A DNA stretch of 64,000 nt, taken from the NCBI GenBank assembly GCA_016839165.1, contig CP069300.1, forward strand, positions 6,138,001-6,202,000, given 5' to 3'. Both the position numbers and the translations under genes were made by a program. Below, piece after piece: positions 30,842 to 47,210 of this stretch; the first letter of the stretch is position 1; every line of letters begins with the position of its first letter. The stretch is from Bradyrhizobium sp. PSBB068 (GTDB lineage: Bacteria > Pseudomonadota > Alphaproteobacteria > Rhizobiales > Xanthobacteraceae). The notes under the pieces are model-generated. The model searched no databases and had not been told where the DNA came from. It saw only the letters and a list, made by a program, of their open reading frames with translations.

Positions 30842-33800
30842 TCACGCGTGCTGTGGCTGCGCCAGCTGACTGACCTGCGTCGCCGGCGGATCGACAACCA
30901 GGGTGCCGCCATGGCCATCACTCGAGGCCGTGAATGTCGAGGCCATGTAGTTGCCCAGCAGCGCAACACTTGCCGTGACGGTGCCGTCCGTCACCGTGAG
31001 CGTTCCTCGCGTGGTGTTTCCGCTGAAGGTCGGCGTGTGAACATTCGCAAAACTGATGTTCGCGAAATCGATCGCGTCCGAACCCATCATGCCGGCGACG
31101 GTGCCGTTAAAGCTCGCGGAATTGTCGAGCTTCAGCGTTCCTGTCGAGCTCTGGAACAACACGGTGGCGTTCGAAGCCCCCGGCAATTCCAGCGTGGCAC
31201 CCGATGCGATGGTCGCATTGCTGGAGCTCTCCCCCGTCACGTTGAATGGCTGCCAGGCCCCCCACGCGATGCCGTCATTGGCCCGGATCCAGAGCTGATC
31301 GGTGCCCGAGCCGGCCAGATAGGTCGCCGTGGCAAGTTGTGCCGCGGTGAGGTCGATCTCGGTGTTCGCCGGCTGCGTCGCGTTGTTGACGATCCACGCT
31401 CCGTTCGTGTTGGAATCCCACAACGCATATTTCGTTATGGTATCGCCATCCGCGTCGGTCGCGCTGAACAGGCTCGATGCGGCGAAGGTCTGGCCGGAGA
31501 CCGTCACCACGTTCGAGGCCGACACCGTCGGCGCCTGGTTGGTTGCGGTCGCCGAGAACGCCGTCCAGTTCCCCCACAACATGCCGTCATTGGCGCGCAC
31601 GTAGAGCAGATCCGCCGGCGAACCGCCGGGGCCGAACACGTAGCTCACCTGCGACAGGTTCGCCGCCGACACATCGATCTCGGTGTTGGCCGCCTGCGCG
31701 ACACCATTCACCACCCAGTGACCGTTGCCGCCGGTGTCCCAGAACGCATACTTGGCGATCGCGTCGTTGTCGGCGTCCGTGGCCGTGAACAGGCTGGTAG
31801 CCGCGACCGAATGGTCGTGAATCCCGGTCGCGCTCGACGCCGTCACGACCGGAGCCTGGTCGGGCCCCGGTGTTGCCGTGAACGCCGTCCAGCTGCCCCA
31901 CAAAAGGCCATCGTTGGCCCTGACGTATAGGAGGTCGGGCGGGGTGCCGGTCGGCCCGAACACGTAGCTCACCTGCGACAGGTTCGCCGCCGACACGTCG
32001 ATCTCGGTGTTGGCTGCCTGCGCGACACCATTCACTGCCCAGTGGCCGTTGCCGCCGGTGTCCCAGAACGCGTACTGGGTAATGGCGTTGTGGTCGGCAT
32101 CCGTGGCCGTGAACAGGCTCGTGGCAAGCGCTGACGTCTCTCCGTGGACTGCTGCCACGTTCGGCGCCGTCACGACCGGCGGATGATCGGACCCTGACGG
32201 TGCCGTGAACGCCGTCCAGGCGCCCCACAAGTAGCCATCGTTGGCCCTGATGTACAAGGTATCGGATGGCGCCCCCGACGGCCCGAATACGTAGCTCACC
32301 TGCGACAGGTTCGCCGCCGACACATCGATCTCGGTGCTGGCCGCCTGCGCGACACCATTCACGACCCAATGGCCATTGCCGCCGGTGTCCCAGAACGCGT
32401 ACTGGGTGATGGCGTCGTGATCGGCGTCCGTCACCGAGAACAGGTTCGAGGCGAGTACTGACGTCTCTCCTGCGGTTACGGTCACGTTCGGCGCCGTTAC
32501 AACCGGCGCCTGATCAGGCCCCGGTGTTGCCGTGAACGCCGTCCAGGCGCCCCACAAGAAGCCATCGTTGGCCCTAACGTACAGCGTATCGGGTGTCGAC
32601 CCTGTCGGTCCGAACACATAGCTCACCTGCGACAGGTTCGCCGCCGACACATCGATCTCGGTGTTGGCTGCCTGCGCGACACCATTCACCACCCAGTGGC
32701 CATTGCCGCCGGTGTCCCAGAACGCGTACTGGGTGATGGCGTTGCCCGTGGCCGAGAACAGGCTCGTGGCGAGCGCTGACGTCTCTCCATGGATCGCGGT
32801 CACGTTCTGCGCCGTAACCACCGGCGGAGTGTCGGCCCCCGGTGGCGCCGTGAACGCCGTCCAGGCGCCCCACAGGTAGCCATCATTGGCCCTGACGTAC
32901 AGCGTATCGGGCATCGAGCCGGGCGCACCGAACACATAGCTCACCTGCGACAGGTTCGCCGCCGACACATCGATCTCGGTGTTGGCCGCCTGCGCGACAC
33001 CATTCACCACCCAGTGGCCATTGCCGCCGGTGTCCCAGAACCCGTACTGGGTGATCGCGTCGTGGTCGGCGTCCGTGGTCGTGAACAGGTTCGAGGCGAG
33101 TACTGTCGTCTCTCCCTGGGTTACCGTCACGTTCGGCGCCGTCACAACCGGCGCCTGGTCAGGCCCCGGTGTTGCCGTGAACGCCGTCCAGGCGCCCCAC
33201 AAGAATCCATCGTTGGCCCTGATATACAGCGTATCGGGTGCCGAGCCTGTTGGTCCGAACACGTAGCTCAACTGCGACAGGTTCGCCGCCGACACATCGA
33301 TCTCGGTGTTCGCTGCCTGCGCAACACCATTCACCGTCCAGTGGCCATTGCCGCCGGTGTCCCAGAACGCGTACGTGGTGATGGCGTCGTGGTCGGCATC
33401 CGTGGCTGTGAACAGGCTCGTGGCGAGCGCCGATGCCTCTCCATGGATTGCTGTCACGTTCGGCGCCGTCACAACCGGAGCCTGGTCAGGCCCCGGCGTC
33501 GCCGTGAATCCGGTCCAGGCGCCCCACAGCATTCCGTCGTTCGCTCTTATGTACAGCGTATCGGGCGCCGACCCTGTCGGCCCGAAGACATAGCTCACCT
33601 GCGACAGGTTCGCCGCCAACACATCGATCTCGGTGTTTGCCAGCTCGGTGATGCCGTTCACCACCCAGTGGCCGTTACCGCCCGTGTCCCAGAACGCGAA
33701 CTGGGTGATCGATTGCCCAACATCCGGATCGGTCACTGTGAACAGGGTCGATGCCGCAACCGACGTTTGGCCGTGCGCCGCAGTGACGTTGCTGTTGTTG

Positions 33801-36800
33801 GCGATCACGGTCGGCGGCGTATCGACAAACGCCTTGGCCGTGAATTGAGTCCAGCCGCCCCAGGCCGTGCCGTCATTGGCCCGTACGAACAGCGTATCGG
33901 TCGAACCGCTCGGACCGAACACGTAGCTCACCTGCGACAGGTTCGCCGCGGGAACATCGATCTCCTGGTTGGTAGCCTGGGTGACGCCGTTGATAGCCCA
34001 GTGTCCGTTACCTTGCGTGTCCCAGAACGCATATTGGGTGATGACATCGCCATCGGCGTCCGAGACGCTGAAGAGGGCGGAGGACAGCACGGAGCTCTCA
34101 CCAAGGATTGCCGTGACATTGGCTGCCGTCGTAACCGGCGGGTTATCTGCATGCGTCGTGACCAGAGTGCCGGTACCGCCCGTGTCCACGCTGACGCTGA
34201 ACCGCACAGCGGGTGTCTGATCGAGCTGCAGACTGTAGGAAGAACCACCCTCCGTGACCCGCAGGACATTGCCCGGGAGCAAGGTCGCCGAGCCGCCGGA
34301 AGAGAAAGTGACGCCGGCCAGATCGATGCTGTCGCCCAGCACCAGCCCGCTGATCGTAGTGGTCGGCATCGACGTGCCGTCAATCTTGAGCTGCCCGCCG
34401 GAACCGCTGAAGGTGATGCCGCCGCTCGCGACGCTTCCCGCCTGCAATTCAACCTGGCCGCCGGCAATCGTGACAGGCCCCGTGGAGCCGCCCGACGATA
34501 CCAGCTCGATACCTCCGGCGAACACCCCGATGTTGTTCGTCACCGCGCCGGCAACATTGAGCACACCGCCGCTCGAAACACCGACGAACGCCGCTGAACC
34601 ACCGGCCAGAACGTTCAAGATACCGCCGGCGGAGACGCCGGTGCCCGAGCCGATCGCGCCGGAAATGAGACCGCCCGACAGCACGTTCTCGACGCCGCCG
34701 GCGCGGACCCCGACCATGCTGAGCGTCGTGCCGGCCACGTTGAAGATGCCGCCGCTCGACACGCCGACATAGCTGGCCGAACCGCCTGCCGATACGTTGA
34801 CCGTACCGCCCGAAATGCCGGTGCCGGAACCGCTCGCGCCGGAAATCGATCCGCCCGACAACACGTTCTCGATGCCGCCGCTGTAGACGGCTGTGTTGCT
34901 GAGCACCTGGCCTGCAACATTGAAGGTGCCGCCGCTCGACACACCGATGTGAACAGCCGACCCGCCGGCCGAAACGTTCAGGATGCCTCCGGAGGCAACT
35001 CCGGTTCCCGAGCTCGTGACACCGGAGATCAGTCCGCCGGACAGGACGTTCTCGACGCCGGTGTCCGTGACGTACGTGTTGCTGGTGATCGTGCCTGCAA
35101 CATTCATGGTGACGCCACTCGACACCGTAATGTTGTGCGCCGTACCACCGGCGGAGACGTTCAGAACGCCACCGTTCCAGGCCGTCACGTAAGCAAGCGA
35201 ACCGCCTGACGACACGTTGAGTGTGCCGCCGGAAATGGCGGTCCCCGAGCCCGACGCGCCTCCGACAACGCCACCCGCGAGGACGTTCTCGATGGCGCCG
35301 GAAGATACGGTCACGTTGCTGAGCACGGTGCCCGCCACGTTGAACGTGCCGCCGCTCGAAACGGTCAGGAAGGCCCCGGTACCACCGGCCAGAACATTCA
35401 CGGTGCCGGCAGCGGAAATGAGAGTCCCCGAGCCGAACGTGCCGGAGATCAATCCACCGGACAGCACGTTCTCGACACCGCCGCTCGAGACCGTCACGTT
35501 GCTGGTCATGGTGCCGGCAACGTTGAGCGTGCCGCTCGACACCACCACGTTGTGCGCCGTGCCCCCGGCGGACACATTCATCGTGCCGCTCGAAACGGTC
35601 AGATGATCCAGTGCTCCGCCCGCAAACACATTGACGGTGCCGCCGGACACACCTGTCCCAGAGCCGGGCACGCCAGTAACAACACCACCGGAGAGGACAT
35701 TCTCAACACCGCCGCTAACGACGCTCACATTGCTGAGCACCGTGCCCGCAACGTTGAAGATGCCGCCGCTAGACACGCCGACGAATGCCGCCGAGCCGCC
35801 GGCCAACACGTTGAGCGTACCGCCCGAAACTCCCGTTCCAGACCCGATCGCCCCGGAGATAGATCCGCCTGACGACACGTTCTCGACGCCGCCGCTGTAA
35901 ACGGCGGCATTACTCAGCACATTGCCGAAGACGTTGAATGTGCCGCCGCTCGACACACCAACATGCGTAGCCGAACCGCCGGCCAGCAAGTTCAACACGC
36001 CTCCGGCGGAGACGCCGGTTCCGGAACTCGTGGCTCCGGAAATCAGCCCGCCTGACAGCACGTTCTCGACACCGCCGCTGGCGACGCCGCCCTCGCTGAC
36101 GACCGTGCCCGCGACGTTCAGGGTGCCGCCACTATACGCCTTGATGAAAGCGGCCGAACCGCCCGCCGACACATTGACAGTGCCGCCCGAAATTCCCGTT
36201 CCGGAGCCGAACGTGCCCGAGATGAATCCGCCGGACAGGACGTTCTCGACACCGCCGCCGAAGACCGCCGTGTTGCTGGTCATCATGCCCGCGACATTCA
36301 AGGTGCCGCCGCTCGACACCAGGACGGCGTGCGCCGTACCGCCGGCGGAGACGTTGAGCACACCGCCGTTGCTGACAACGGCGTTTTGCTCGGCTCCGAA
36401 GACATTCTCGGTGCCACCACTGAGTACGGTGCCGACCGTCGTTCCGCCGGACAGGACGTTGAGCGTCTGACCGCTGCTGATGACCAGCCCCACGTCGGTC
36501 TGGCCGCTGCTCACGGTGATGTTGCCGCTGCCACCGCTGCTGGTGAAGAGGAAGATGTCGGTGCCGGTGGCATCGCCCGCGCGGCCGAACGGATTGGTAA
36601 AGGTCTGGCTCGGGTCCAGCTGAAGCGTCAGCGTGCCGTTATCGGTGGTCGCTATCTGAAGAACGTTGTTCGCGCCGAGGCCCACGCTGGTGACGTGCGA
36701 AGCGCTCTCGCTGGTAAGGTTGATCGTGTCGCCGACGACGAAGCCGGAGATGGTGGCTCCGGGCATCGTGGTGCCATCAATCTCCAGCTTGCCGCCATTG

Positions 36801-37729
36801 CCCGAGAACCCGGTCCCACCGGAAACGCCAGGCCCGGAGAAGTCAAACTCGCCGGCGGAGCCGCCAACCTGGAGCTCGACCGTGCCGCCCCAGACGCCGA
36901 TGCTGCCCGCCGATCCGGCAACATTGGCGATGCCACCGGAAAATACATCGAAACGCGTCGCCGAGCCGCCTGCCTGGAGATTGAGCGTACCGTAATCGCC
37001 CGTGAACGTGCCGCCCGACCCTGAGATCAAGCCGCCCGACAACACGTTCTCGACGCCACCGCTCGAGATCACACTATTGCTGAGAATGACGCCGGCCACA
37101 TTCGCCGTGCCGCCGCTGTTCACGCCCACAAAGGCTCCCGACCCGCCGGCAGAGATGTTCAGGGTGCCTCCCGCATAAACCCCCGTGCCCGAATGCGGGG
37201 CGCCACTGATGAAGCCGCCCGAAAGGACGTTCTCGACGCCTCCCGAAATACCGACGGTGCTCAGCGTTTCGCCGGCGACGTTCAGGACACCGCCGCCATA
37301 GACCGCGATAAAAGCCGCGGAACCACCGGCCAGGACGTTCTCCACGCCACCTGAAAAAACGCCGGTGCCCGAACCGATACCACCGCTGGTAGAGCCGCCC
37401 GACGATATGTTCAGCACGCCGCCGCCGCCGACGCGGATATGATCCACCACGCCGCCGGCCAGCACGTTGACAGTGCCGTTGTCGCTGTTGAAAACGCCTG
37501 TGCTGCCGCTGCCGGTGCCGCTCATCGCGCCGCCGGCGCTGATCGTCGCGCTGCCGCCGCTCGAAATCGTGGTCGCGGCTGCGTAGCCGCCGGAATCGAC
37601 CAGGAGCTGACCACCGCTGCTCAGCGTCGTCGAGACCGCCGAGCCTCCGTTGAGGACTTCGAGCGTGTTGCCGCCCGTTTCGATCAAACCTGAGCTGGTA
37701 ACACCCGAGCTTACGAAAGTGGTGCTCAT
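30842..37729 (-). CDS. Giant strand-loop-strand (AIDA-type) repeat adhesin, probable type I secretion substrate
   Basis: A 2295-residue protein without a Sec signal, transmembrane helix or autotransporter beta-barrel. Layout: AIDA-type strand-loop-strand repeats (units such as VSSGGTFNVAGTVLSN and GGVENVLSGGLISG; about 1-310); a spacer starting KLEIDGTTMPGATISGF (about 313-393); a second repeat block (about 395-1110); a second spacer LKIDGTSMPTTTISGLV (about 1113-1193); nine modules of ~107 residues (about 1195-2163) each with FWDTGGNGHWVVNG and YVRANDG.LWGAWTAF; and a third spacer-like C-terminus (LKLDNSASFNGTVAGM ... SDGHGGTLVVDPP) of a kind seen in type I-secreted rhizobial proteins. ATG at 37729 follows a G-rich ribosome site; a TTG at 37747 is less likely. 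It lies 51 bases after the heptosyltransferase gene, implying co-expression and glycosylation of the repeats. Confidence 0.85.
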   Translation of the reverse strand: MSTTFVSSGVTSSGLIETGGNTLEVLNGGSAVSTTLSSGGQLLVDSGGYAAATTISSGGSATISAGGAMSGTGSGSTGVFNSDNGTVNVLAGGVVDHIRVGGGGVLNISSGGSTSGGIGSGTGVFSGGVENVLAGGSAAFIAVYGGGVLNVAGETLSTVGISGGVENVLSGGFISGAPHSGTGVYAGGTLNISAGGSGAFVGVNSGGTANVAGVILSNSVISSGGVENVLSGGLISGSGGTFTGDYGTLNLQAGGSATRFDVFSGGIANVAGSAGSIGVWGGTVELQVGGSAGEFDFSGPGVSGGTGFSGNGGKLEIDGTTMPGATISGFVVGDTINLTSESASHVTSVGLGANNVLQIATTDNGTLTLQLDPSQTFTNPFGRAGDATGTDIFLFTSSGGSGNITVSSGQTDVGLVISSGQTLNVLSGGTTVGTVLSGGTENVFGAEQNAVVSNGGVLNVSAGGTAHAVLVSSGGTLNVAGMMTSNTAVFGGGVENVLSGGFISGTFGSGTGISGGTVNVSAGGSAAFIKAYSGGTLNVAGTVVSEGGVASGGVENVLSGGLISGATSSGTGVSAGGVLNLLAGGSATHVGVSSGGTFNVFGNVLSNAAVYSGGVENVSSGGSISGAIGSGTGVSGGTLNVLAGGSAAFVGVSSGGIFNVAGTVLSNVSVVSGGVENVLSGGVVTGVPGSGTGVSGGTVNVFAGGALDHLTVSSGTMNVSAGGTAHNVVVSSGTLNVAGTMTSNVTVSSGGVENVLSGGLISGTFGSGTLISAAGTVNVLAGGTGAFLTVSSGGTFNVAGTVLSNVTVSSGAIENVLAGGVVGGASGSGTAISGGTLNVSSGGSLAYVTAWNGGVLNVSAGGTAHNITVSSGVTMNVAGTITSNTYVTDTGVENVLSGGLISGVTSSGTGVASGGILNVSAGGSAVHIGVSSGGTFNVAGQVLSNTAVYSGGIENVLSGGSISGASGSGTGISGGTVNVSAGGSASYVGVSSGGIFNVAGTTLSMVGVRAGGVENVLSGGLISGAIGSGTGVSAGGILNVLAGGSAAFVGVSSGGVLNVAGAVTNNIGVFAGGIELVSSGGSTGPVTIAGGQVELQAGSVASGGITFSGSGGQLKIDGTSMPTTTISGLVLGDSIDLAGVTFSSGGSATLLPGNVLRVTEGGSSYSLQLDQTPAVRFSVSVDTGGTGTLVTTHADNPPVTTAANVTAILGESSVLSSALFSVSDADGDVITQYAFWDTQGNGHWAINGVTQATNQEIDVPAANLSQVSYVFGPSGSTDTLFVRANDGTAWGGWTQFTAKAFVDTPPTVIANNSNVTAAHGQTSVAASTLFTVTDPDVGQSITQFAFWDTGGNGHWVVNGITELANTEIDVLAANLSQVSYVFGPTGSAPDTLYIRANDGMLWGAWTGFTATPGPDQAPVVTAPNVTAIHGEASALATSLFTATDADHDAITTYAFWDTGGNGHWTVNGVAQAANTEIDVSAANLSQLSYVFGPTGSAPDTLYIRANDGFLWGAWTAFTATPGPDQAPVVTAPNVTVTQGETTVLASNLFTTTDADHDAITQYGFWDTGGNGHWVVNGVAQAANTEIDVSAANLSQVSYVFGAPGSMPDTLYVRANDGYLWGAWTAFTAPPGADTPPVVTAQNVTAIHGETSALATSLFSATGNAITQYAFWDTGGNGHWVVNGVAQAANTEIDVSAANLSQVSYVFGPTGSTPDTLYVRANDGFLWGAWTAFTATPGPDQAPVVTAPNVTVTAGETSVLASNLFSVTDADHDAITQYAFWDTGGNGHWVVNGVAQAASTEIDVSAANLSQVSYVFGPSGAPSDTLYIRANDGYLWGAWTAFTAPSGSDHPPVVTAPNVAAVHGETSALATSLFTATDADHNAITQYAFWDTGGNGHWAVNGVAQAANTEIDVSAANLSQVSYVFGPTGTPPDLLYVRANDGLLWGSWTAFTATPGPDQAPVVTASSATGIHDHSVAATSLFTATDADNDAIAKYAFWDTGGNGHWVVNGVAQAANTEIDVSAANLSQVSYVFGPGGSPADLLYVRANDGMLWGNWTAFSATATNQAPTVSASNVVTVSGQTFAASSLFSATDADGDTITKYALWDSNTNGAWIVNNATQPANTEIDLTAAQLATATYLAGSGTDQLWIRANDGIAWGAWQPFNVTGESSSNATIASGATLELPGASNATVLFQSSTGTLKLDNSASFNGTVAGMMGSDAIDFANISFANVHTPTFSGNTTRGTLTVTDGTVTASVALLGNYMASTFTASSDGHGGTLVVDPPATQVSQLAQPQHA
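31225..34150 (-). repeat. Nine tandem ~320-base modules in the giant adhesin gene
   Basis: Each module encodes about 107 residues beginning APVVTAPNV and holding NGHWVVNGVAQAANTEIDVS, LSQVSYVFG and RANDG. The inner modules are nearly alike in DNA as well as protein; the first, second and ninth are more diverged. The fifth lacks five residues (DADHD region). Confidence 0.9.
34400..37700 (-). repeat. Strand-loop-strand repeat region of the giant adhesin gene
   Basis: Dozens of ~19-residue units combine into a higher-order unit of about 60-65 residues with the order NVAG, GGVENVLSGG, ISG..GSGTGVSGG, NVSAGGSA. The region is interrupted by one spacer (about 36550-36790). Such regions in AIDA-I and TibA form a beta-helix whose serines carry heptose. 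Confidence 0.85.
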
Positions 37730-37780
37730 GGCAGCGCGCCCCCCCAATGAAAAAGGCTAGTCAGTTCTTGAAAAAATCGG

Positions 37781-39091
37781 CTAGAGCTTGAATCCGGGAA
37801 TAGTCCTGATCACCGATTTGACGTGATCCACCGTGATCAGCCTTGTGCACTCGAACTGACGCGGCGTCCCCTTGTGGCGGGGACACCAGAAGAAATCCTT
37901 GTGGTCGAAGCGAACTGCCGGATCGTTCCAGCAGCTGTTGCAGGCGTGATAGTTGACGACGCGATAGGGCGTAGCAAATTCGTTTGTCGGATGCGTGAAG
38001 CCCGAGATCATGACCACCGGCGTGCCGACCGCCCAGGCCAGCCACGCAAGTCCGCTCGATAGACCGACAAAAAATTCCGCGTGCTTGATGAGATTCGCGC
38101 GCTCCTGAATCGGCCGGTCACCGGTCCAGTCCTCCGCGCCGTTCGGAATGTGATTCCATACCAGTTCGTGACCGTGCGTCGGCTTCTGATCGATGCAGAT
38201 CACGCGATAGCCGGCCTCTTTGAGAAAACTGGTCAGCTCACGCCAGCCGTTGGGGTTATTCCAGTACTTGCATTGCGTGGTACTCTGTACCGCGATGCAG
38301 ACGTAAGGCTCGGGGATCGGCCTTTGGTCATCGGCCAGCGAGATGCGCGGCGCGACTTCAGTCGGATCGACGCCGAGGATATATCCGGCGGTCCGGTGCA
38401 GTCCGACAAAGCGGAAGTCGCATGGTTGATAGACGAAGTTCTTGTCGTCGAAAAACAATCCGACGCTGTAGGTGGCGTAGTAGCGGTCGGTTTGAATCTC
38501 CTCGTGCGTGACGAAGTTGATGTCGGGGTACGCATCCCGAAACAGCGGAATCAACTTTTCCGCCATTGCACAGGTCAGCCTGCAATTGTGAGCTTCCCTG
38601 AACTTCGCCACATAGGGAAACCAGCCGATCGTATCTCCCAGCGTCCCGATCGGAAGCTGGATCAAAACGTGACGATCCGTCGCGTTGTACTCGTGCGAGA
38701 AGACGACATCATCGCCCTGCAAGACTTCGATGCGGAAGCGAATGTAGTAGCGCTTTGAGCTGTTGACGCGACCGCCCGCGAACTGCGTCTCGAAGAGAAG
38801 GTTGCCGGTCTCGGCGTCCCAGAGCCGCACGCGCCATGGGATTTCTCCCTGGGGACAAAACACCCGGGCGCCGTCGTTGAAGTCGAAGCGCAGCCCCTTC
38901 GGACCCAATTGGGTCGGCTGTTCGGCTGCAGGGGGATAGGCAGGCTTCGGCGCGTCGGCACCCGACGAAACGGCTTCCGACTTGCCCGATATAGCGCTCG
39001 TCGAACGATCGACGATTATTTTGGGTTGGTCGGTGACATCGTCAATCGAGCGCTTCAGCCCAATCGCCGGCGCAACGGCAATGGCATTCAC
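37781..39091 (-). CDS. Autotransporter-type O-heptosyltransferase (BAHT; Aah/TibC family)
   Basis: Cytoplasmic glycosyltransferase predicted to move heptose from ADP-heptose onto serines of the strand-loop-strand adhesin. Diagnostic marks: IGTLGDTIGWFPYVAKFRE with the catalytic Asp, the nucleotide-sugar region YVCIAVQSTTQCKYWNNP, FFVGLSSGLAWLAWAVGTPV, and four cysteines (residues 384, 387, 403 and 415) in HACNSCW, FFWCPRHKG and QFECTR, equivalent to the iron-binding cysteines of TibC. A GTG at 39091 with AGGGGA upstream is preferred (436 residues); an ATG at 39139 has no ribosome site. The N-terminal ~75 residues are a variable extension. The gene is upstream of its likely acceptor, as in aah-aidA. 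Confidence 0.92.
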   Translation of the reverse strand: MNAIAVAPAIGLKRSIDDVTDQPKIIVDRSTSAISGKSEAVSSGADAPKPAYPPAAEQPTQLGPKGLRFDFNDGARVFCPQGEIPWRVRLWDAETGNLLFETQFAGGRVNSSKRYYIRFRIEVLQGDDVVFSHEYNATDRHVLIQLPIGTLGDTIGWFPYVAKFREAHNCRLTCAMAEKLIPLFRDAYPDINFVTHEEIQTDRYYATYSVGLFFDDKNFVYQPCDFRFVGLHRTAGYILGVDPTEVAPRISLADDQRPIPEPYVCIAVQSTTQCKYWNNPNGWRELTSFLKEAGYRVICIDQKPTHGHELVWNHIPNGAEDWTGDRPIQERANLIKHAEFFVGLSSGLAWLAWAVGTPVVMISGFTHPTNEFATPYRVVNYHACNSCWNDPAVRFDHKDFFWCPRHKGTPRQFECTRLITVDHVKSVIRTIPGFKL

Positions 39092-39240
39092 GAAATATCC
39101 CCTGCCCTGAAATAATAAACAGCCTCTTAAAAAGTGCATGGAAGGTAAGCGAGATTGACAACCGCGTCAACGGACGAAAACCTTAGCGGGTACCCCTTCG
39201 CAGCCGTTCCTTAACGGCATACACAAAGAAACACACCACG
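39092..39240. promoter_or_regulatory. Divergent promoter region, heptosyltransferase / methyltransferase
   Basis: A 149-base spacer between oppositely read genes includes the AT-rich stretch aataataaacagcctcttaa (39110-39129), lower in GC than its surroundings. No exact promoter boxes were identified, but both gene starts must be served from here. Confidence 0.5.
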
Positions 39241-40044
39241 ATGAGCCGCACTCCCAGCAAGATCCCGTTTGTGATCGCAGCATCGGCGCATGGCCCGCTG
39301 ATCGTCAACCGGCTGGACTATCACACGGCGGGCGGCCACACTTTTGGAGTCGGGATTCAGATTCTCGAGCATGGCGCGTTCGACGTCACTGAAATCGAGC
39401 TGACGAAGGGTCTTCTTGCACTGCGAAGAACCTACCGGGGCGATGGCGTGGTCGCGATCGACTGCGGGGCGAACATCGGTGTTCACACCATCGAATGGTC
39501 CAAGCACATGGACGGCTGGGGCTCGGTCGTTGCCATCGAGGCGCAGGAACGGGTCTACTACGCGCTTGCCGGCAATATCGCCGTCAACAACTGCTTCAAT
39601 GCGCGGGCGATGCACGCGGTGATTTCGTCGGAAACCGGGAAAACTTGGGTGCCGACTCTCAGTCATCAAGAGCCCGCCAGTTTCGGCAGCCTGGAGATAA
39701 CGCAACGCTCCGCCACGGAGCAGATCGGTCAGAAGATCGATTATTCAGCGGCCAGCGGCACCGAAACGGCGATGGTCACCCTGGACTCCCTGAATTTGAG
39801 CCGCTGTGACCTGATCAAGATCGACGTCGAAGGGATGGAGTTGAAGGTGCTGGAGGGGGCCAGCGTCACGATCCGGCAGCATCACCCCATCATTCATGCG
39901 GAATTCATCAAGACCGACAAGGCCGCACTCGTTCACAAGCTGAACGATCAAGGATACCGGACATACGACGCCGGCCAAAACTGCCTTGCGATCCATGAAT
40001 CCGATCCAAGCCTGAGCCACGTGGAAGCCCGAACCACGTCGTGA
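39241..40044 (+). CDS. FkbM family methyltransferase
   Basis: SAM-dependent O-methyltransferase of 267 residues. The FkbM core is visible: GDGVVAIDCGANIGVHTIEW (SAM-binding loop), VVAIEAQERVYYALAGNIAV, and the later DLIKIDVEGMELKVLEGA with the closing HPIIHAEF. FkbM enzymes often methylate sugars. It is divergent from the heptosyltransferase and directly adjoins the secretion genes, so a role in capping the adhesin glycan is a reasonable inference, not shown. The ATG at 39241 lacks a strong ribosome site. Confidence 0.88.
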   Translation: MSRTPSKIPFVIAASAHGPLIVNRLDYHTAGGHTFGVGIQILEHGAFDVTEIELTKGLLALRRTYRGDGVVAIDCGANIGVHTIEWSKHMDGWGSVVAIEAQERVYYALAGNIAVNNCFNARAMHAVISSETGKTWVPTLSHQEPASFGSLEITQRSATEQIGQKIDYSAASGTETAMVTLDSLNLSRCDLIKIDVEGMELKVLEGASVTIRQHHPIIHAEFIKTDKAALVHKLNDQGYRTYDAGQNCLAIHESDPSLSHVEARTTS

Positions 40045-40066
40045 CTGCCTGACTTGCTGCACTCCA

Positions 40067-41482
40067 TCACCGCTCTCGCAGAGCATCCTGCCGGTAGCGC
40101 ACGATCGGCGACAGCAAATAGCTCATGATGCTGCGGGCGCCCGTCCTGATTTCGACGGTGACGGTCATTCCCGGCGAAAGATTGATCTCCTTGTCATCGA
40201 CGACCATCTTGGTCCGGTCGATCGAGACATGCGCGATATAGACCGGCCCCTGTCCCTTTGGCTCGCTGCTGCTCCCCTCCGTCGCTGCGCCATTGGGCTC
40301 GCGGGCGGAATCCCGCGCCTTGTCGCGGGAGACGGAATCGGGCGAGACGCTGACGATCTTGCCGTGCAGCAGGCCGTAACGCGTGAAGTTGAAGGTATCG
40401 ACCTTGATTTCGGCGTCCTGGCCCGGGTGCACAAAGCCGATATCGCGATTTGAGACCATCGCTTCGATTTCAATCAGATTGTCGCTCGGCACGACCACCG
40501 CAAGCGTCTGGGCCGGCGTGACGACACCGCCGACAGTGTGCACGGCCAATTGCTGCACCACGCCGTCGATCGGCGCCGCGAGCTTCTGAAGGTTGGTCCG
40601 GTGCTCGGCTTTGGACACCTCGTCCTTGAGGCTGCCGGCCTTCTGCGTCGCCTTGGCCAGATCGTCGTACAGGCGGTGGCGGTACTCCGAGACAAGCTTG
40701 GCGCGCGTCTCATCGAGTGCGGCCACGGCTGCGTCGGCTTCCTGGAGCTTGCTCCGCTGCACCAGGATGTCCTGCTGCATCCCGACCAGTTCCTGAAGCT
40801 CCTGCAAATATTGCAGCTTTGAGCCGTACTCCCGGTCCGCCAGATACTTGCGAACGCTGACGCGCTCCTGCAGCACCGGCAGCAGAGCTTCGATCTTGGC
40901 GATGCTGGCGTCGATCGTCTTGGTCTCCGCCACCTTCTGCACCCGCTGCCGATCCAGCTCGGACAATTTGGCGCGCTGCTCGGAATCCTGACTTCGCAGG
41001 TATTCCATGTGCATTTGGACCAGGGCGGGCGGCGCGTCGTCCGGCGCGCCGTCAAGCCCGCTCGTGTTTCCATCAAGCGCGGAACGCGTGCGTGCGATGT
41101 CCAGCAATGCGGCGAGAAGATCGTTTTTCTGGTGCTGAAGCTCCGCCTGGTTGCTGGTCGGATCCAGCTCGATCAGAATCTCGCCGGCCTTGACGGTTTG
41201 GCCGTCGCGGACGTGAATCGCCCGCACCACCCCGATCTCGAGCGGCTGGACCAGCTTGACGCGGTCGCCCGGCACGATCTTGCCGGGGGCGGAGGCCACG
41301 ATGTCGATCTTGCCGAGGCCGGCCCAGGCCACGGCGCAACAGAACAGGGCAGCCAGCAAGACGGCAGTCAGCCTGGCAGTGGGCGATGGCGGCGTCTCGA
41401 CGATTTCGAGGGCGGCCGGCAGGAAAGCCAGCTCGTCCCGGGTTTTGCGCCCGGCCGCAGGCGCTTCACGAGCCGACTTCAT
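40067..41482 (-). CDS. Type I secretion membrane-fusion protein (HlyD family)
   Basis: Periplasmic adaptor that joins the ABC exporter with an outer-membrane TolC-type channel. The 471 residues have a short cytoplasmic tail, a membrane helix (38-57), a barrel/lipoyl half (SAPGKIVPGDRVKLVQPLE), long coiled coils (about 115-310) and the second lipoyl half (KLAAPIDGVVQQLAVHTVGG), ending with GMTVTVEIRTGARSIMSYLL, the HlyD family signature. Its start overlaps the end of the exporter gene by 17 bases, so the two are co-translated. No tolC-like gene is in this window. Confidence 0.95.
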   Translation of the reverse strand: MKSAREAPAAGRKTRDELAFLPAALEIVETPPSPTARLTAVLLAALFCCAVAWAGLGKIDIVASAPGKIVPGDRVKLVQPLEIGVVRAIHVRDGQTVKAGEILIELDPTSNQAELQHQKNDLLAALLDIARTRSALDGNTSGLDGAPDDAPPALVQMHMEYLRSQDSEQRAKLSELDRQRVQKVAETKTIDASIAKIEALLPVLQERVSVRKYLADREYGSKLQYLQELQELVGMQQDILVQRSKLQEADAAVAALDETRAKLVSEYRHRLYDDLAKATQKAGSLKDEVSKAEHRTNLQKLAAPIDGVVQQLAVHTVGGVVTPAQTLAVVVPSDNLIEIEAMVSNRDIGFVHPGQDAEIKVDTFNFTRYGLLHGKIVSVSPDSVSRDKARDSAREPNGAATEGSSSEPKGQGPVYIAHVSIDRTKMVVDDKEINLSPGMTVTVEIRTGARSIMSYLLSPIVRYRQDALRER

Positions 41483-43607
41483 GGATCCCCGCCTGCAACC
41501 GGTAAAGCGACGCGTATCTTCCGCCCGAGCTCAGCAGCTCCTCGTGGGACCCCTGTTCAACCAGCCTGCCGCGATCGATGGTGATGATTCGATCAGTACG
41601 CCGCACGGCGGACAGCCGATGCGCAATGACAAAGACCGTTCGCCCCTTCACGATCCGGTTCATATTGTCCTGAATGACTCGTTCGCTTTCGTAGTCCAGC
41701 GAACTGGTCGCTTCGTCGAAGATCAGGATGCGCGGATCGGTGATCAGGGCGCGCGCGATCGCGATGCGCTGCCGTTGCCCTCCCGACAGACTGGAGCCGC
41801 GCTCGCCCACGACGGTGTCGTAGCCTTCGGGGAGCTCAAGAATGAATTCGTGGGCTCCCGCAAGCTGGGCCGCGGCGATCACCTGCTGCATCGGAGCGGC
41901 CGGGTCGGCGAGCGCGATGTTTTCCCGGACGCTGCGATTGAACAGCACGTTTTCCTGCAGCACGACGCCGACCTGGCGGCGCAGCCACGCCGGATCGACC
42001 ATCGCAAGGTCGACGCCGTCGACGAGGACCCTGCCCTTCTCCGGAACGTAAAGGCGCTGAACGAGCTTCGTGAAGGTGCTCTTGCCTGAACCGGACGGGC
42101 CGACGATGCCGACGACCTGGCCGGCTGGAATGTTGATGTTGATCTCGTGCAGCACCTCGGGTCCATCCACTCGATACCGGAAGGACACGTGCTCGAGCGT
42201 GACCTGCCCCTTGATGGGGGGCGGCACGGCGCGACCGGGGTTGAACGTCTGCTCCGCCGGCGTGTTCAGGATATCGCCGAGCCGCGCGATCGAGAGCCTG
42301 GCCTGATGGAAGTCCTGCCAGAGCTGCGCCAGCCTCAGAACCGGCGCGCTGACGCGTGACGCGAACATGTTGAAGGCGATCAGCTCGCCGACCGTGAGGC
42401 TGCCGTCGATCACCAGTTTGGCGCCGGCATAAAGGATCACCGCGGTGACGAGCTTGCTCACGAACTGGACCGACTGGCTCGCAACATTGGCGAGGCTGAG
42501 CACACGGAAACTCGCCGCCACGTATTCGGCAAGCTGCTCCTCCCAGCGGCGCTGCATCTGCGGCTCGAGCGCCATCGCCTTGATGGTTTCGACCCCGGTC
42601 ACGCTCTCGACCAGAAACGCCTGGTTCTCGGCCCCGCGCTCGAATTTGGTGTCCAGCCGCTGACGGAACAGCGGCGTCGCGCCGGCGGAGATGCCGACAT
42701 AGAGCGGGAAGGATCCGAGCACGATCCAGGTCAGGATCGGCGAGTAGACGAACATCACCGCGATGAAGACGACGGTGAAGAACAGGTCGATCACGACCGT
42801 CAGGGCCGAGCCGGTCAGGAAGTTGCGGATGTTCTCGAGCTCGCGGACCCGCGCAACCGAATCGCCGACCCGGCGAGCCTGAAAATAGGCAATGGGCAGT
42901 CCGATCAGGTGCCGAAACAAGCGGGCCCCCAGTTCGACATCGATCCTGTTCGTCACATGGGAGAACAGGTAGGTCCTCAATATTGCGAGGGCCGTCTCGA
43001 AAACCGCGATGCCGATCAAGCCTACGACGAGCACATCGAGTGTGCTGAGTGTGTGATTGACCAGGACCTTGTCGATCACCACCTGAAAGAACAGCGGCGA
43101 CACCAGCGCAAACAGCTGCAGGAAAAAAGAGGCGATCAGCACCTCCACGAAATGGTACCGATATTTGTGGATCGCTCCCAGAAACCATGACAGGTCGAAG
43201 CGGCGTGCAAGATTGACCAGCCCCGCCCGGCGGCTCACCAGGATCAACTGGCCGGTCCACACTGCCTCCAGATCAGCCCGCGTTATCAACTCCGGGCGCT
43301 CCGACAGCGGCGATTGAACGAGGATCTTGTCGGCGCCCACCTTGGCAAGGATCAAATGACCACCGTCGCGCAACAACGCGATGGCGGGAAGCGGCGCCTT
43401 CTCCAGCCTTAGCCAGTTGGTGGTCACCTCCCGGGCCTTGACGCCGGTCGAGCGCGCGTGGCGCAGCATCTCCGGCGTTCCGAACGGGCCATTGCCGACT
43501 TGATGACGAATCTGGTCGACATCGGCCGCGATGCCGTGAAAACGCAGCAGCATCGCGAGTGCAACGATCCCGCTGTCTGCTGCCGTACCACTCCGCGTTT
43601 CAATCAT
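41466..43607 (-). CDS. Type I secretion ABC exporter with C39-like domain (HlyB/RtxB class)
   Basis: Inner-membrane exporter of 713 residues. The N-terminal ~125 residues are a C39-like domain in which the peptidase cysteine position reads SGIVALAMLLRFHGI, so it cannot cleave a leader and probably binds the substrate, as in HlyB. A six-helix membrane domain follows (about 155-440; LFALVSPLFFQVVIDKVLVN is typical), then an ATPase with Walker A GPSGSGKST (about 501-509), signature LSGGQRQRIA (about 606) and Walker B ILIFDEATSSLD (about 625). The likely substrates are the two flanking module-containing proteins. Confidence 0.95.
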   Translation of the reverse strand: MIETRSGTAADSGIVALAMLLRFHGIAADVDQIRHQVGNGPFGTPEMLRHARSTGVKAREVTTNWLRLEKAPLPAIALLRDGGHLILAKVGADKILVQSPLSERPELITRADLEAVWTGQLILVSRRAGLVNLARRFDLSWFLGAIHKYRYHFVEVLIASFFLQLFALVSPLFFQVVIDKVLVNHTLSTLDVLVVGLIGIAVFETALAILRTYLFSHVTNRIDVELGARLFRHLIGLPIAYFQARRVGDSVARVRELENIRNFLTGSALTVVIDLFFTVVFIAVMFVYSPILTWIVLGSFPLYVGISAGATPLFRQRLDTKFERGAENQAFLVESVTGVETIKAMALEPQMQRRWEEQLAEYVAASFRVLSLANVASQSVQFVSKLVTAVILYAGAKLVIDGSLTVGELIAFNMFASRVSAPVLRLAQLWQDFHQARLSIARLGDILNTPAEQTFNPGRAVPPPIKGQVTLEHVSFRYRVDGPEVLHEININIPAGQVVGIVGPSGSGKSTFTKLVQRLYVPEKGRVLVDGVDLAMVDPAWLRRQVGVVLQENVLFNRSVRENIALADPAAPMQQVIAAAQLAGAHEFILELPEGYDTVVGERGSSLSGGQRQRIAIARALITDPRILIFDEATSSLDYESERVIQDNMNRIVKGRTVFVIAHRLSAVRRTDRIITIDRGRLVEQGSHEELLSSGGRYASLYRLQAGIHEVGS

Positions 43608-44061
43608 CTCACGATTTAATCTGCTCAGTAGCTGAAAATGACTGCCGTCGAACGCGAGCCGACACTGTCGTGAGCGCGCCCCCTGCCCTTTCGGCCTCGC
43701 CGTCAGCGCAAGCTGACTATTCGTAACGAACCGGTAGAGCAGCAGATGAATATGACGGCCAGAGTACTATGGCTCTCCGGCGAGATGCAATTGGCGTTGT
43801 CCGCGACCAAGCAGAATTCGCGAACAACATCATGCCGATCCCAGAATCGATCGTTGGAACCGTTCGCAGCCGAAGCAGGCTCCGTAGTCTTACGGGTCGC
43901 CGTGCTTGATATCGCCTCCAACGGGGTCACCCGGATGAGCTCGTCGGCCGTTCGGTGCAATAGAGAGCATGCCTTTCTGGTCTTGCAGGATACAGAAATG
44001 ACTGGTCACATGAATATTAATTATTATTGGTACGCTACCATAGATTGAAGGCTCGACCAAT
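43608..44061. other. Gene-free divergent region ahead of the zincin-module gene
   Basis: About 450 bases between two divergent genes. Short frames on both strands look like chance frames with no family resemblance. The last ~80 bases (43985-44061) are AT-rich (gaatattaattattattgg), in contrast to the GC-rich rest, and are the likely promoter and leader for the gene starting at 44062. Confidence 0.6.
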
Positions 44062-47061
44062 ATGACTTGGAATTATTCCGTAACGTTGAATGATTCTTCG
44101 AGCGCAGGCGGATCGGCCGAGGCCTCTCTCGTTTACGATCTCGAGCAGGCCCTCAATGTCTGGCAGCGATACATCCTGGGCAATGGCACCCTGGTGGTGC
44201 AGCTCAACATCCTGCCCACCACCGTTGGCCGCGCCGATGGCGGGCCTACCTCGAGCTACAACGTCGGCACAAACGGCGGGCTCGCGGTGTATGAGCCGTC
44301 AAGCCAGTACGAGCTGACCACCGGACAGCATGTCGCCGGCACCACAAGCGACATCACCATCAACATCGATCCCGGCTACTTCCAATATATCGACATGGAT
44401 TATGGCCTGACCTACGCCAGTCAGGTGCCCGCAAACGTGATCAATCCGATCGACGTTTTTCTTCATGAGCTCATGCACGGCTTCGGCATGACGGGCTGGT
44501 ACAACCAGAGCGGCCAGCTGCCCGGCGCCTACGAATCGACGTTCGACACCCTGATCCAAAAGAGCGGCATGGGCGCCTACTTCGTCGGCGCGAATGCCGA
44601 GGCCGCCTACGGTGGCCCGGTGCCCCTGACCACGAACAGCACCACCCAGAACTACTACCATTTCGGCAACCAGCAATCCGACCTCTACGCCACCCCGTCG
44701 ACGGTCAAGGACCCGCTCACGCTGGACTTGATGAACGGGATCGTTTTCTTCTCCGATTACCAGTACGCGATCTCCAACCTGGACATCGGAATTCTGAAGG
44801 ATCTCGGATACAGCATCCGGACGACACCGGTCGTGACGGCCGGCGATCAGGCCGCGGGCCGAAATCAGGTTTTCGCGGCCTCATCGCTGTTCTCGGTGAA
44901 CATGGCCGCCGGCGATTCCGTTACCGAATATTCCTTTTGGGACAGCAACGGCAACGGTCACTGGACGGTGGGAGGAACAGTCCAGGGCACCAAGACCGAG
45001 ATCGACATCAGCGCGTCGCAGCTGGCGCAAACGAGCTATCAGGCTGGACCCGGCGCCGACACTTTGTGGGTAAGAGCCTTCGACGGCTATTTGTGGAGCG
45101 ACTGGAAATCCTTTGTGATCTCGCCGGCCGATCACGCGCCGGTGGTCACGGCGGCGAACGTCACCGTTCCATACACGCAACTCGCGGCGACCGGTTCGTC
45201 CCTGTTCTCCGCCAGCGACTCAGACGGCGACACGATCACCAAATATGGGCTGTGGGACACCGAGGGTCACGGGTACTGGATGATCGGCGGCGTTGCGCAA
45301 GCCACCGACGCCGAGATCGACGTCTCGGCGGCCAGCCTCTCACAGGTGAGCTATGTATTCGGAACGGCCCCGGACACGCTCTGGGTCCGGGCCTATGATG
45401 GATATCTCTGGGGAGCATGGGTCCCGTTCACGGCCACGCAAAATGTGGATCACCCTCCGGTCGTCTCGGCTTCCGGCTTCACGGCGGCGCACGGACAAGC
45501 TTCGGTCGCGGCTTCCGGGCTGTTCAGCGCCACCGACCAGGATCACGATGCGATCACCCAATACGCACTCTGGGACAGCAACGGCAACGGCCACTGGGTG
45601 GTGAACGGTGCCGTTCAGGCCACCGAAGTGGAAATCGACATCACCGCGGCGCAGCTTGCCCAGACCAGCTACCAGTTTGGCCAGGCTCCAGACCAGCTCT
45701 GGGCGAGGGCCTATGATGGATATCTCTGGGGAGCATGGGTCCCGTTCACGGCCACGCCAGGTCCGAATCATGCACCGGTGGTCAGCGCGTCTGATGCCAC
45801 CGCCACACACGGTCAGGACATCGCCGCGTCCCATCTGTTCAGCGTCAACGATGCCGACAACGACACGATCACCGCCTATCAACTCTGGGATTCAACGAGT
45901 GATCCCGCCAGCGGGCACTGGGTGGTCGGCGGCGTCGCGCAGGCTGCCGGCATCGCGATCGATGTGTCGCCCGCTCAGTTGACGAGCACCTCGTTCCAGT
46001 CGGGCTCCGGTTCGGATGACCTCTGGGCGCGGGCCAATGACGGCATCACATGGGGGGCCTGGAAAGAATTCCACGTCACCGCGCCGATCGACCAGGGTCC
46101 CGTGGCCAGCGCGTCTGATGTGACCGCCACACATGGTCAGGACATCGCCGCGTCGAACCTGTTCACGGTCAGCGATGCCGATGGGGACTCTATCACAGCC
46201 TATCAGCTCTGGGATTCAACGAGTGATCCCGCCAGCGGGCACTGGGTGGTCGGTGGCGTCGCGCAGGCTGCCGGCATCGCGATCAATGTGTCGCCGGCTC
46301 AGTTGACGAGCACCTCGTTCCAGTCGGGCTCCGGTTCGGATGACCTCTGGGCGCGAGCCTTCGATGGCATCACATGGGGGGCCTGGAAAGAATTCCACGT
46401 CACCGCTCCGATCGACCAGGGTCCCGTGGCCAGCGCGTCTGATGTGACCGCCACGCATGGTCAGGACATCGCCGCGTCGAACCTGTTCACGGTCAGCGAT
46501 GCCGATGGCGACACGATCACCGCCTATCAGCTTTGGGATTCGACCAGCGATCCCGCCAGCGGTCATTGGGTGGTCGGCGGTGTGGCGCAGGCCGCCGGCA
46601 TCGCGATCAATGTGTCGCCGGCTCAGTTGACGAGCACCTCGTTCCAGTCGGGCTCCGGTTCGGATGACCTGTGGGTGCGGGCCAATGACGGTTTCACATG
46701 GGGGGCCTGGAAAGAATTCCACGTCAACGCACCGCTTGACCATGCTCCTGTCGTCACCGCAGCTGACTTCCACGCGACCGTCCTCAACCAGAACGTGGCC
46801 GCCACCAGCCTGTTCTCGGTCGCCGACGCCGACGGGGACAGCATCACCCAATATCAAGTCTGGGATTCGACATCGTCAGCCGGCAGCGGCCACTGGAGCA
46901 TCGGCGGCGTCGCGCAGCCCGCCAGCACCGCTATCAACGTCAGCCCCGCCCAGCTCGCCGGCACGACCTTCCAGGGCGGCACCGTGACTGACGACCTCTG
47001 GGTTCGCGCCAACGACGGCATGATGTGGAGCGCCTGGCAGGAATTTCATTTCATCGTCTAG
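44062..47061 (+). CDS. Zincin-domain protein with seven C-terminal modules, probable type I secretion substrate
   Basis: A 999-residue protein without Sec signal or membrane helix. The N-terminal ~250 residues resemble a bacterial metalloprotease: zinc motif HELMHGFGM at 135-143, and later LTLDLMNGIVFFSDYQYAIS and ISNLDIGILKDLGYSI, a pattern seen in secreted zincin-type proteins. From about residue 253 there are seven modules of ~105-108 residues homologous to those of the giant adhesin (LWDSNGNGHWVVNG, LWVRAYDGYLWGAW). It ends EFHFIV with no RTX nonapeptides. Divergent from the exporter gene and ended by a strong terminator. Secretion by the neighbouring type I system and protease activity are inferences. 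Confidence 0.8.
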   Translation: MTWNYSVTLNDSSSAGGSAEASLVYDLEQALNVWQRYILGNGTLVVQLNILPTTVGRADGGPTSSYNVGTNGGLAVYEPSSQYELTTGQHVAGTTSDITINIDPGYFQYIDMDYGLTYASQVPANVINPIDVFLHELMHGFGMTGWYNQSGQLPGAYESTFDTLIQKSGMGAYFVGANAEAAYGGPVPLTTNSTTQNYYHFGNQQSDLYATPSTVKDPLTLDLMNGIVFFSDYQYAISNLDIGILKDLGYSIRTTPVVTAGDQAAGRNQVFAASSLFSVNMAAGDSVTEYSFWDSNGNGHWTVGGTVQGTKTEIDISASQLAQTSYQAGPGADTLWVRAFDGYLWSDWKSFVISPADHAPVVTAANVTVPYTQLAATGSSLFSASDSDGDTITKYGLWDTEGHGYWMIGGVAQATDAEIDVSAASLSQVSYVFGTAPDTLWVRAYDGYLWGAWVPFTATQNVDHPPVVSASGFTAAHGQASVAASGLFSATDQDHDAITQYALWDSNGNGHWVVNGAVQATEVEIDITAAQLAQTSYQFGQAPDQLWARAYDGYLWGAWVPFTATPGPNHAPVVSASDATATHGQDIAASHLFSVNDADNDTITAYQLWDSTSDPASGHWVVGGVAQAAGIAIDVSPAQLTSTSFQSGSGSDDLWARANDGITWGAWKEFHVTAPIDQGPVASASDVTATHGQDIAASNLFTVSDADGDSITAYQLWDSTSDPASGHWVVGGVAQAAGIAINVSPAQLTSTSFQSGSGSDDLWARAFDGITWGAWKEFHVTAPIDQGPVASASDVTATHGQDIAASNLFTVSDADGDTITAYQLWDSTSDPASGHWVVGGVAQAAGIAINVSPAQLTSTSFQSGSGSDDLWVRANDGFTWGAWKEFHVNAPLDHAPVVTAADFHATVLNQNVAATSLFSVADADGDSITQYQVWDSTSSAGSGHWSIGGVAQPASTAINVSPAQLAGTTFQGGTVTDDLWVRANDGMMWSAWQEFHFIV
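45772..46743 (+). repeat. Three tandem 324-base repeats in the zincin-module gene
   Basis: Units at 45772-46095, 46096-46419 and 46420-46743 each encode 108 residues with SDPASGHWVVGGVAQAAGIA and WGAWKEFHV. The second and third are nearly identical in DNA, showing recent duplication; the flanking modules are much more diverged. Confidence 0.92.

Positions 47062-47133: not shown

Positions 47134-47210
<77 letters not shown>

Follow-up and report, generated by a model that had tools for sequence, protein, structure and literature searches.

How does an adhesin built like a glycosylated autotransporter leave the cell when it has neither a beta-barrel nor a Sec signal? This question is raised by a locus of Bradyrhizobium sp. 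PSBB068, in which the gene for a long strand-loop-strand repeat protein directly follows a gene for an O-heptosyltransferase of the Aah/TibC family (bacterial autotransporter heptosyltransferase, BAHT), and genes for a type I exporter lie nearby. We analysed the locus within a stretch of 64,000 nt (contig CP069300.1, positions 6,138,001 to 6,202,000; hereafter the window), which belongs to a genome of 7.67 Mb. The reading that we prefer, with a probability of roughly 0.73, is that the locus encodes a modify-then-export system, in which the adhesin would be O-heptosylated in the cytoplasm, perhaps methylated by an enzyme of the FkbM type, and exported by HlyB- and HlyD-type proteins together with a TolC-type protein. 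A first-pass annotation of the window had proposed cytoplasmic heptosylation and type I export here, and comparative linkage supports this proposal, in which we infer the heptosylation and the dependence on the exporter. The pairing is wider than was proposed, recurring across Bradyrhizobium and relatives.

The adhesin and the neighbouring heptosyltransferase

The genes on which the argument depends are as follows, with coordinates in the window.

30842..37729, minus strand: adhesin, 2295 aa from ATG; a TTG start at 37747 gives 2301 aa
34208..37729 (approximate), minus strand: strand-loop-strand (AIDA/TibA-like) half of the adhesin, presumed heptose acceptor, with SGG repeats and TIGR04415 stretches
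31250..34195 (approximate), minus strand: cadherin-like half of the adhesin, with a repeat unit of about 108 residues present about nine times (nine motif matches, PF16184)
30842..31213, minus strand: C-terminal module of the adhesin (residues 2179-2301), candidate type I signal region or solenoid cap, seen by alignment with Bradyrhizobium, Reyranella and Enhydrobacter adhesins
37781..39139, minus strand: Aah/TibC-family O-heptosyltransferase (BAHT), 452 aa as listed (TIGR04414, TibC structures)
39241..40044, plus strand: FkbM-type methyltransferase, divergent from the BAHT gene, candidate heptose modifier (PF05050, 70.4 bits)
40067..41482, minus strand: HlyD-type membrane fusion protein (TIGR01843, 410.3 bits)
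41466..43607, minus strand: HlyB-type ATP-binding cassette (ABC) exporter with an N-terminal C39-like domain (TIGR01846, 1030 bits; PF03412, 58.6 bits)

Transcription on the minus strand runs from the HlyB-type gene through the HlyD-type and BAHT genes to the adhesin gene, whose TTG start is located 34 nt past the end of the BAHT gene; the FkbM gene, on the plus strand, sits between the HlyD and BAHT genes. The first-pass annotation placed both the ABC exporter and HlyD within 3 kb of the adhesin, which is right for HlyD (2.3 kb from the adhesin start) but not for the ABC gene (3.7 kb); the corresponding distances to the BAHT gene are 0.9 and 2.3 kb. A promoter scan gave three sigma-70-like sites in 38900-44300 (0.7 expected), which we did not use.

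The NCBIfam cut-offs are 200 bits for TIGR04414, 30 for TIGR04415, 208.65 for TIGR01843 and 725.55 for TIGR01846. Against TIGR04415 the adhesin scores 88.8 bits, and 11 of its stretches pass the cut-off alone; this score, the TIGR04414 score of the neighbouring gene and the open reading frames (ORFs) bear out that a 2295-residue strand-loop-strand protein directly follows a BAHT, and two of the profile searches suggested beforehand are thereby positive. The adhesin also matches the TibA structure 4q1q (1.2e-8), and its scores against the AIDA-I model (135.8 bits) and the Pfam AIDA family (25.2 bits) lie under the respective cut-offs of 1200 and 27. The SGG repeats occupy residues 44-1150 of the 2301-aa form, and the cadherin-like repeats are seen as nine motif matches at residues 1242-2110 and as 69.9 bits against Cadherin_3 (PF16184) in Pfam, a relative having a weak match to PF17803. 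The protein contains no Cys.

That the adhesin has neither a barrel nor a Sec signal, as had been claimed from the letters alone, held in our searches. The remaining suggested profile, PF03797 for the barrel, found nothing in the adhesin at E up to 0.1. No Lys or Arg is present among the first 60 residues of the ATG form, where the best 15-residue hydropathy is 0.87, and by this heuristic the protein therefore has no Sec-type n-region. The number of basic residues in the first 60 is 0-4 in eleven other exporter-linked or orphan adhesins and 7-10 in seven adhesins of Burkholderiales.

The BAHT scores 651.5 bits against TIGR04414 (positions 1-374 of 374) and about 460 bits across 375 residues against the solved TibC structures 4rb4/4rap. 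Its closest named relatives are Bradyrhizobium proteins (96% for B. macuxiense, 91% for B. elkanii), and the relatives' length of 436 aa, compared with the 452 aa listed here, suggests a possible GTG start at 39091. Asp-110, Thr-226, Lys-230, Arg-286 and Trp-305 of TibC are catalytic or donor-binding, and four Cys form an iron finger, according to the available part of the structural study (PMC4358343). The window BAHT has the respective equivalents D169, T287, K291, R347 and W366, as well as the iron-finger residues C400, C403, C419 and C431. Among the 90 BAHTs aligned, the Thr-226 position varies, with Thr in 66 and Ser in the other 24, and all the remaining positions are invariant (90/90). 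The same part of that study assigns donor choice to TibC Pro-300 / AAH Ser-294, where Ser permits both ADP-D,D- and ADP-L,D-heptose. Since Ser is found at this position in the window BAHT, and in 85 of the 90 aligned BAHTs, the enzyme is predicted to use, and should accept, either epimer of ADP-heptose.

Linkage of heptosyltransferase and exporter genes

A survey of related genomes for the same gene set had also been suggested, and it provided comparative evidence in favour of the proposal. In a family sample of 391 genomes, with at most a few candidates scored per genome, TIGR04414 passed its cut-off in 26; the sample holds 28 intact BAHT genes (the gene of genome G263, split over two contigs, being counted once), and up to 20 kb was fetched around each. 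An ABC exporter and HlyD are found within 10 kb of 25 of the 28 intact loci (23 of L049-L074, G263 and the window). At L049, HlyB and HlyD lie about 13 kb off, upstream of a very long adhesin, while L053 and L057 are truncated where their contigs end. One degenerate BAHT copy was also over the cut-off (G314:C4), and remnants below it are present in G371 and in the window's own genome. An order-wide sample gave BAHT in 2 of 397 genomes, both of them identified before.

Across 24 Bradyrhizobium genomes there are 37 HlyB genes in about 187 Mb, which puts the chance of meeting one within 10 kb of any given place at about 0.4%. Because counting related loci as independent would overstate the significance of the linkage, we considered distinct gene orders: for four of seven to be linked by chance, where seven is our own choice, the probability is about 1e-8. 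The earlier view that the two systems are normally seen apart is right for the published enteric cases and for the Burkholderiales loci of our survey, but in this bacterial family the joint wiring is the rule.

Type A, comprising the window and nine other loci of the family sample, has HlyB-HlyD, FkbM on the opposite strand, BAHT-adhesin and, next to hlyB, a protease-like gene that is divergent from it at all loci but L059. Type C (L067, L070, L108) has BAHT and a 580-aa adhesin with HlyB-HlyD divergent. In Reyranella and Enhydrobacter (L103, L106, L110, L123), HlyD-HlyB is divergent from adhesin-BAHT, the adhesin match to TIGR04415 being confirmed in L103 and L106. L223, the contig of L111 from Bradyrhizobium sp. 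SSUT77, carries HlyB-HlyD-adhesin-BAHT-FkbM on one strand, with an adhesin of 3841 codons from stop to stop; its BAHT, HlyD and HlyB were identified by NCBIfam. Type B, found at 11 loci of the family sample including the split G263, consists of a PrtD-type exporter, HlyD, BAHT and then His-rich-tail protein(s), two in most loci. The type B BAHT is 707-719 aa long in nine loci and 431 aa in L065, and the single one scanned has tetratricopeptide repeats in its C-terminal part. Since no TIGR04415 match was found in the His-rich-tail proteins scanned, the type B BAHT may act on a kind of protein other than a strand-loop-strand adhesin. An example of type B is L063 5377-17634, others being those of BTAi1 (L136) and STM 3843 (L126); the His-rich tails end in HMW[A/G].

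A wider survey covered named loci, which are the best 80 of 446 BAHT loci. An exporter is present in the fetched DNA of 22 of the 80 (18 of the HlyB and 4 of the PrtD type), or of 23 when L223 is included, the exporter of L111 lying just beyond the flank; these exporter-bearing loci are alphaproteobacterial. We used this survey also as a control for the barrel. A barrel profile made from the genome's own autotransporters matched none of the loci at E up to 1, and it proved so narrow that we turned to Pfam instead. With PF03797, a barrel was found in 15 of the 34 complete adhesin ORFs, exactly the 15 Burkholderiales ones, and in 0 of the 19 complete adhesin C-termini outside this order. An exporter accompanies 7 of these 19 and, within the fetched flanks, 0 of the 15 barrel loci, of which L135, L145 and L149 have less than 6 kb on one side (Fisher p 0.011, kinship uncorrected). 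Ten of the 15 barrel genomes have an HlyB-like match elsewhere (E up to 1e-150), seven of them over the cut-off. A Hint domain (PF13403) occurs in 4 of the 19 non-Burkholderiales C-termini, representing a third kind of C-terminus for BAHT partners.

Quick trees were made for BAHT (90 rows) and HlyB (54 rows). The BAHT tree has the PrtD group as a single clade (99*) and requires two changes for the barrel group and nine for the HlyB label. At least five of these nine are forced by starred branches; some of the nine may be artefacts, because some rows labelled 'other', e.g. L049 and L111, have an exporter outside the fetched DNA. In the HlyB tree, type A is a clade of 11 linked genes only (100*), and type C (3/3) and Reyranella/Enhydrobacter (4/4) likewise group, all apart from the sampled unlinked HlyBs; the own genome's second HlyB is in another clade, and the G297 exporter, that of L049, is nested among unlinked ones. 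Because the linked exporters fall in different clades, these trees indicate that exporters have been joined to BAHT more than once, or swapped. BAHT genes were also seen in two records labelled non-Proteobacteria, both metagenome-assembled genomes, namely L088 (Thermomicrobiaceae) and L122 (Solirubrobacterales); L088 is likely to be a misbinned contig, because its BAHT groups among Bradyrhizobium rows in the tree.

The exporter-linked adhesins also have a common end. The window adhesin terminates in about 120 residues that are common to adhesins of other gene orders and genera. We recounted this module in the last 450 residues, counting duplicates once and running HMMER without filters, since the default filters missed the module in adhesins of more than 3000 aa. 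It scores at least 99 bits in all 15 other distinct complete exporter-linked adhesins checked, 7 of which supplied rows of the profile and match by construction while the remainder did not, and all 15 barrel adhesins lack it. It ends at most two residues from the C-terminus in 13 of these exporter-linked adhesins. AlphaFold predicts the module as nearly all beta, with a mean pLDDT (predicted local distance difference test) of 81 and with the last 11 residues below 50.

The proposed modify-then-export route and its rivals

On the route that we propose, BAHT would add O-linked heptose to Ser/Thr of the strand-loop-strand half in the cytoplasm, the donor presumably being ADP-heptose from the lipopolysaccharide pathway; HldE and HldD are encoded together elsewhere in the own genome. 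We considered and rejected a heptose supply special to BAHT genomes, since HldE passed the cut-off in 45 of 46 genomes, of which 26 have BAHT and 20 lack it. The FkbM enzyme may then methylate the added heptose. Such methylation is a fair guess, because FkbM-like genes accompany BAHT at each of the other nine type A loci of the family sample and, other lineages included, at 16 named loci out of 80, and because one BAHT of 694 aa, P0079, has in the same protein Pfam domains that we take, by their names, to be methyltransferases.

The adhesin, having neither Sec signal nor barrel, would be recognised near its C-terminus by the HlyB-type protein, with no leader cut. The ABC protein matches the HlyB structure 7sgr over nearly its whole length (819 bits), and in the alignment its C39-like domain has Ser in place of the catalytic peptidase Cys, at what we take to be the position of that Cys; leader cleavage would then not occur, and an uncleaved C-terminal signal in the cargo is expected. 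A type I signal of this kind, if C-terminal and read post-translationally, would give modification time to finish before export starts. The adhesin, with a presumed role in attachment, would exit via HlyB-HlyD and a TolC-type protein encoded elsewhere: profile searches of the own genome listed no TolC-type gene in the locus and three over the cut-off at other places.

Next to hlyB stand a gene for a second candidate cargo and a tRNA gene.

44062..47061, plus strand: 999-aa protease-like protein carrying cadherin-like repeats and, at residue 135, an HELMH motif; gene divergent from hlyB
47134..47210, minus strand: tRNA-Met (CAT), directly after the protease-like gene

The protease-like protein is a probable second cargo of the exporter. 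It has a counterpart at each of the other nine type A loci of the family sample; the gene at L059 runs in the same direction as hlyB and encodes a variant of the motif.

Several points weigh against the route proposed here. Type I exporters are commonly regarded as requiring their cargo to be unfolded. The beta-helices that BAHTs modify are, according to a review (PMC8151025), already folded or partly folded, and the review asks how such cargo is then unfolded and exported. The adhesin has 0 matches to the RTX nonapeptide motif GGxGxDxUx and no RTX match in Pfam. No exporter is present in the fetched DNA of 58 of the 80 named loci, of which 32 have less than 8 kb on one side and 26 do not, and at four exporter-linked named loci, L087, L100 and L115 among them, and at the PrtD loci no AIDA-like ORF was detected beside BAHT. 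An orphan adhesin of the own genome (L019 10686-16872, C1:3516686-3522872; 1984 aa), whose last 125 residues are 98% identical to those of the window adhesin, is preceded by a short remnant of a BAHT gene, and the 18 kb fetched contain no exporter. As for the C-terminal module, a weak copy is found inside the adhesin at residues 1101-1205 (27 bits; 34 bits in another scan), 107-111 residues follow the module in the exporter-linked L049 and L111/L223, and no PDB entry gave a fold match with E below 0.001 (best E 0.031). Because of such internal copies, the extra residues (present also in L104) and the missing fold match, we rejected the module as a proven export signal; it may be a solenoid cap that may also hold the type I signal. 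The tails after the module in L049, L104 and L111/L223 end in AASWNG or AAAWH[S/G], perhaps another export tail. Finally, the exporter could mainly serve its protease-like neighbour.

Taken further, this last point becomes a rival explanation, in which the exporter serves the protease-like protein (44062-47061) only and the heptosylated adhesin leaves by an unrecognised route or stays in the cell. At every type A locus of the family sample, the window's included, the protease-like gene does adjoin hlyB, and its product and the adhesin carry the same cadherin-like repeats. We nevertheless consider this explanation unlikely, as exporters stand near BAHT with no protease-like gene detected in type C (L067, L070, L108), in L103, L106, L110, L123 and L223, and in the PrtD type.

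It is also conceivable, and still less probable, that the target of BAHT is a different protein, such as a barrel autotransporter encoded elsewhere, and that BAHT stands beside the exporter for historical reasons. Eight PF03797 places exist in the own genome outside the locus, some BAHTs lie away from their targets according to the available part of PMC8151025, and no AIDA-like ORF was detected within the fetched DNA of 26 of the 80 named loci. Such an ORF does, however, stand beside BAHT in 54 of the 80, and the 17 TIGR04415 matches that were listed for the own genome are confined to the window and orphan adhesins, with none of them at a PF03797 place. The BAHT remnant beside the orphan adhesin tells us that parts of such loci decay, and one could suppose that the window adhesin is itself a truncated or decaying autotransporter without its barrel, with the exporter beside it by chance. 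This we regard as very improbable, because many genomes have the barrel-less form with its C-terminus conserved and its reading frame open over a long distance, because none of the 19 complete C-termini outside Burkholderiales has a barrel, and because of the low chance of proximity per locus given above.

Known systems and other copies in the genome

The modify-then-export reading can be set beside several known systems. In HlyC-HlyA-HlyB-HlyD, the cargo is acylated in the cytoplasm and then exported by the type I route. The window has in common with that system a presumed cytoplasmic modifier of the cargo and presumed HlyB/HlyD export from one locus, and differs in the predicted glycosylation by a TibC-type enzyme and in a cargo without the RTX motif. 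The Rap / PrsD-PrsE system of Rhizobium leguminosarum likewise combines rhizobial type I export with cadherin-like extracellular proteins, those of Rap reportedly acting in biofilm; the window differs by the AIDA-like half and the heptosyltransferase. With aah-aidA and tibC-tibA of E. coli it shares the enzyme family with its active-site and iron-finger residues, the strand-loop-strand cargo and the order of enzyme then adhesin (for the E. coli order, the available part of PMC3125207). Unlike in these type Va systems, the cargo has no signal sequence or barrel but carries cadherin-like repeats, and a type I exporter and FkbM are encoded with it. The BAHT loci of Burkholderia, Paraburkholderia and Trinickia also have BAHT near a strand-loop-strand adhesin, but with a barrel in 15 complete adhesins, 7-10 basic residues in the first 60 (seven inspected) and no exporter in the fetched flanks.

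In the available parts of the open literature that we searched, which did not cover Lu et al. 2014 on the BAHT family, nothing connects type I secretion with BAHT or with an adhesin that carries heptose, and the locus apparently represents an unreported, recurrent pairing of two known systems. If the modify-then-export reading is true, cytoplasmic O-heptosylation is not bound to type V secretion, the name of the BAHT family misleads the annotation of many genes, rhizobia own an unreported class of glycosylated surface protein, and the export of a protein modified while folded (in the TibC ring) becomes a testable question. A broader reading, which we put forward tentatively and at somewhat less than even odds, is that alphaproteobacterial BAHTs are general cytoplasmic protein heptosyltransferases feeding type I exporters, with repeated joining events that involved both HlyB and PrtD exporters and led to no fewer than four gene orders. 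On this reading they act on strand-loop-strand adhesins and, in the PrtD branch of Bradyrhizobium (BTAi1, STM 3843 and others), on the quite different His-rich-tail proteins, and a methyltransferase, encoded next to BAHT or fused to it, often O-methylates the heptose. Such a system would amount to a glycoprotein secretion class not yet described.

Related copies are found at other places. Adhesin copies resembling the orphan one, with BAHT remnants, are present in G371 (L077) and G314 (L078). In the own genome, a 1275-aa protein (L179 9180-13007; C1:5140180-5144007, minus strand) has the cadherin-like repeats and the C-terminal module of the adhesin; profile searches of this genome listed no HlyB or BAHT near it, and on a reading of its motifs it appears papain/calpain-like. 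The second HlyB-HlyD pair of the own genome (L170 8723-12884; C1:2534723-2538884) lies within an exopolysaccharide-like cluster, and its ABC protein of 916 aa apparently has, as read from its sequence, two C39-like domains in tandem.

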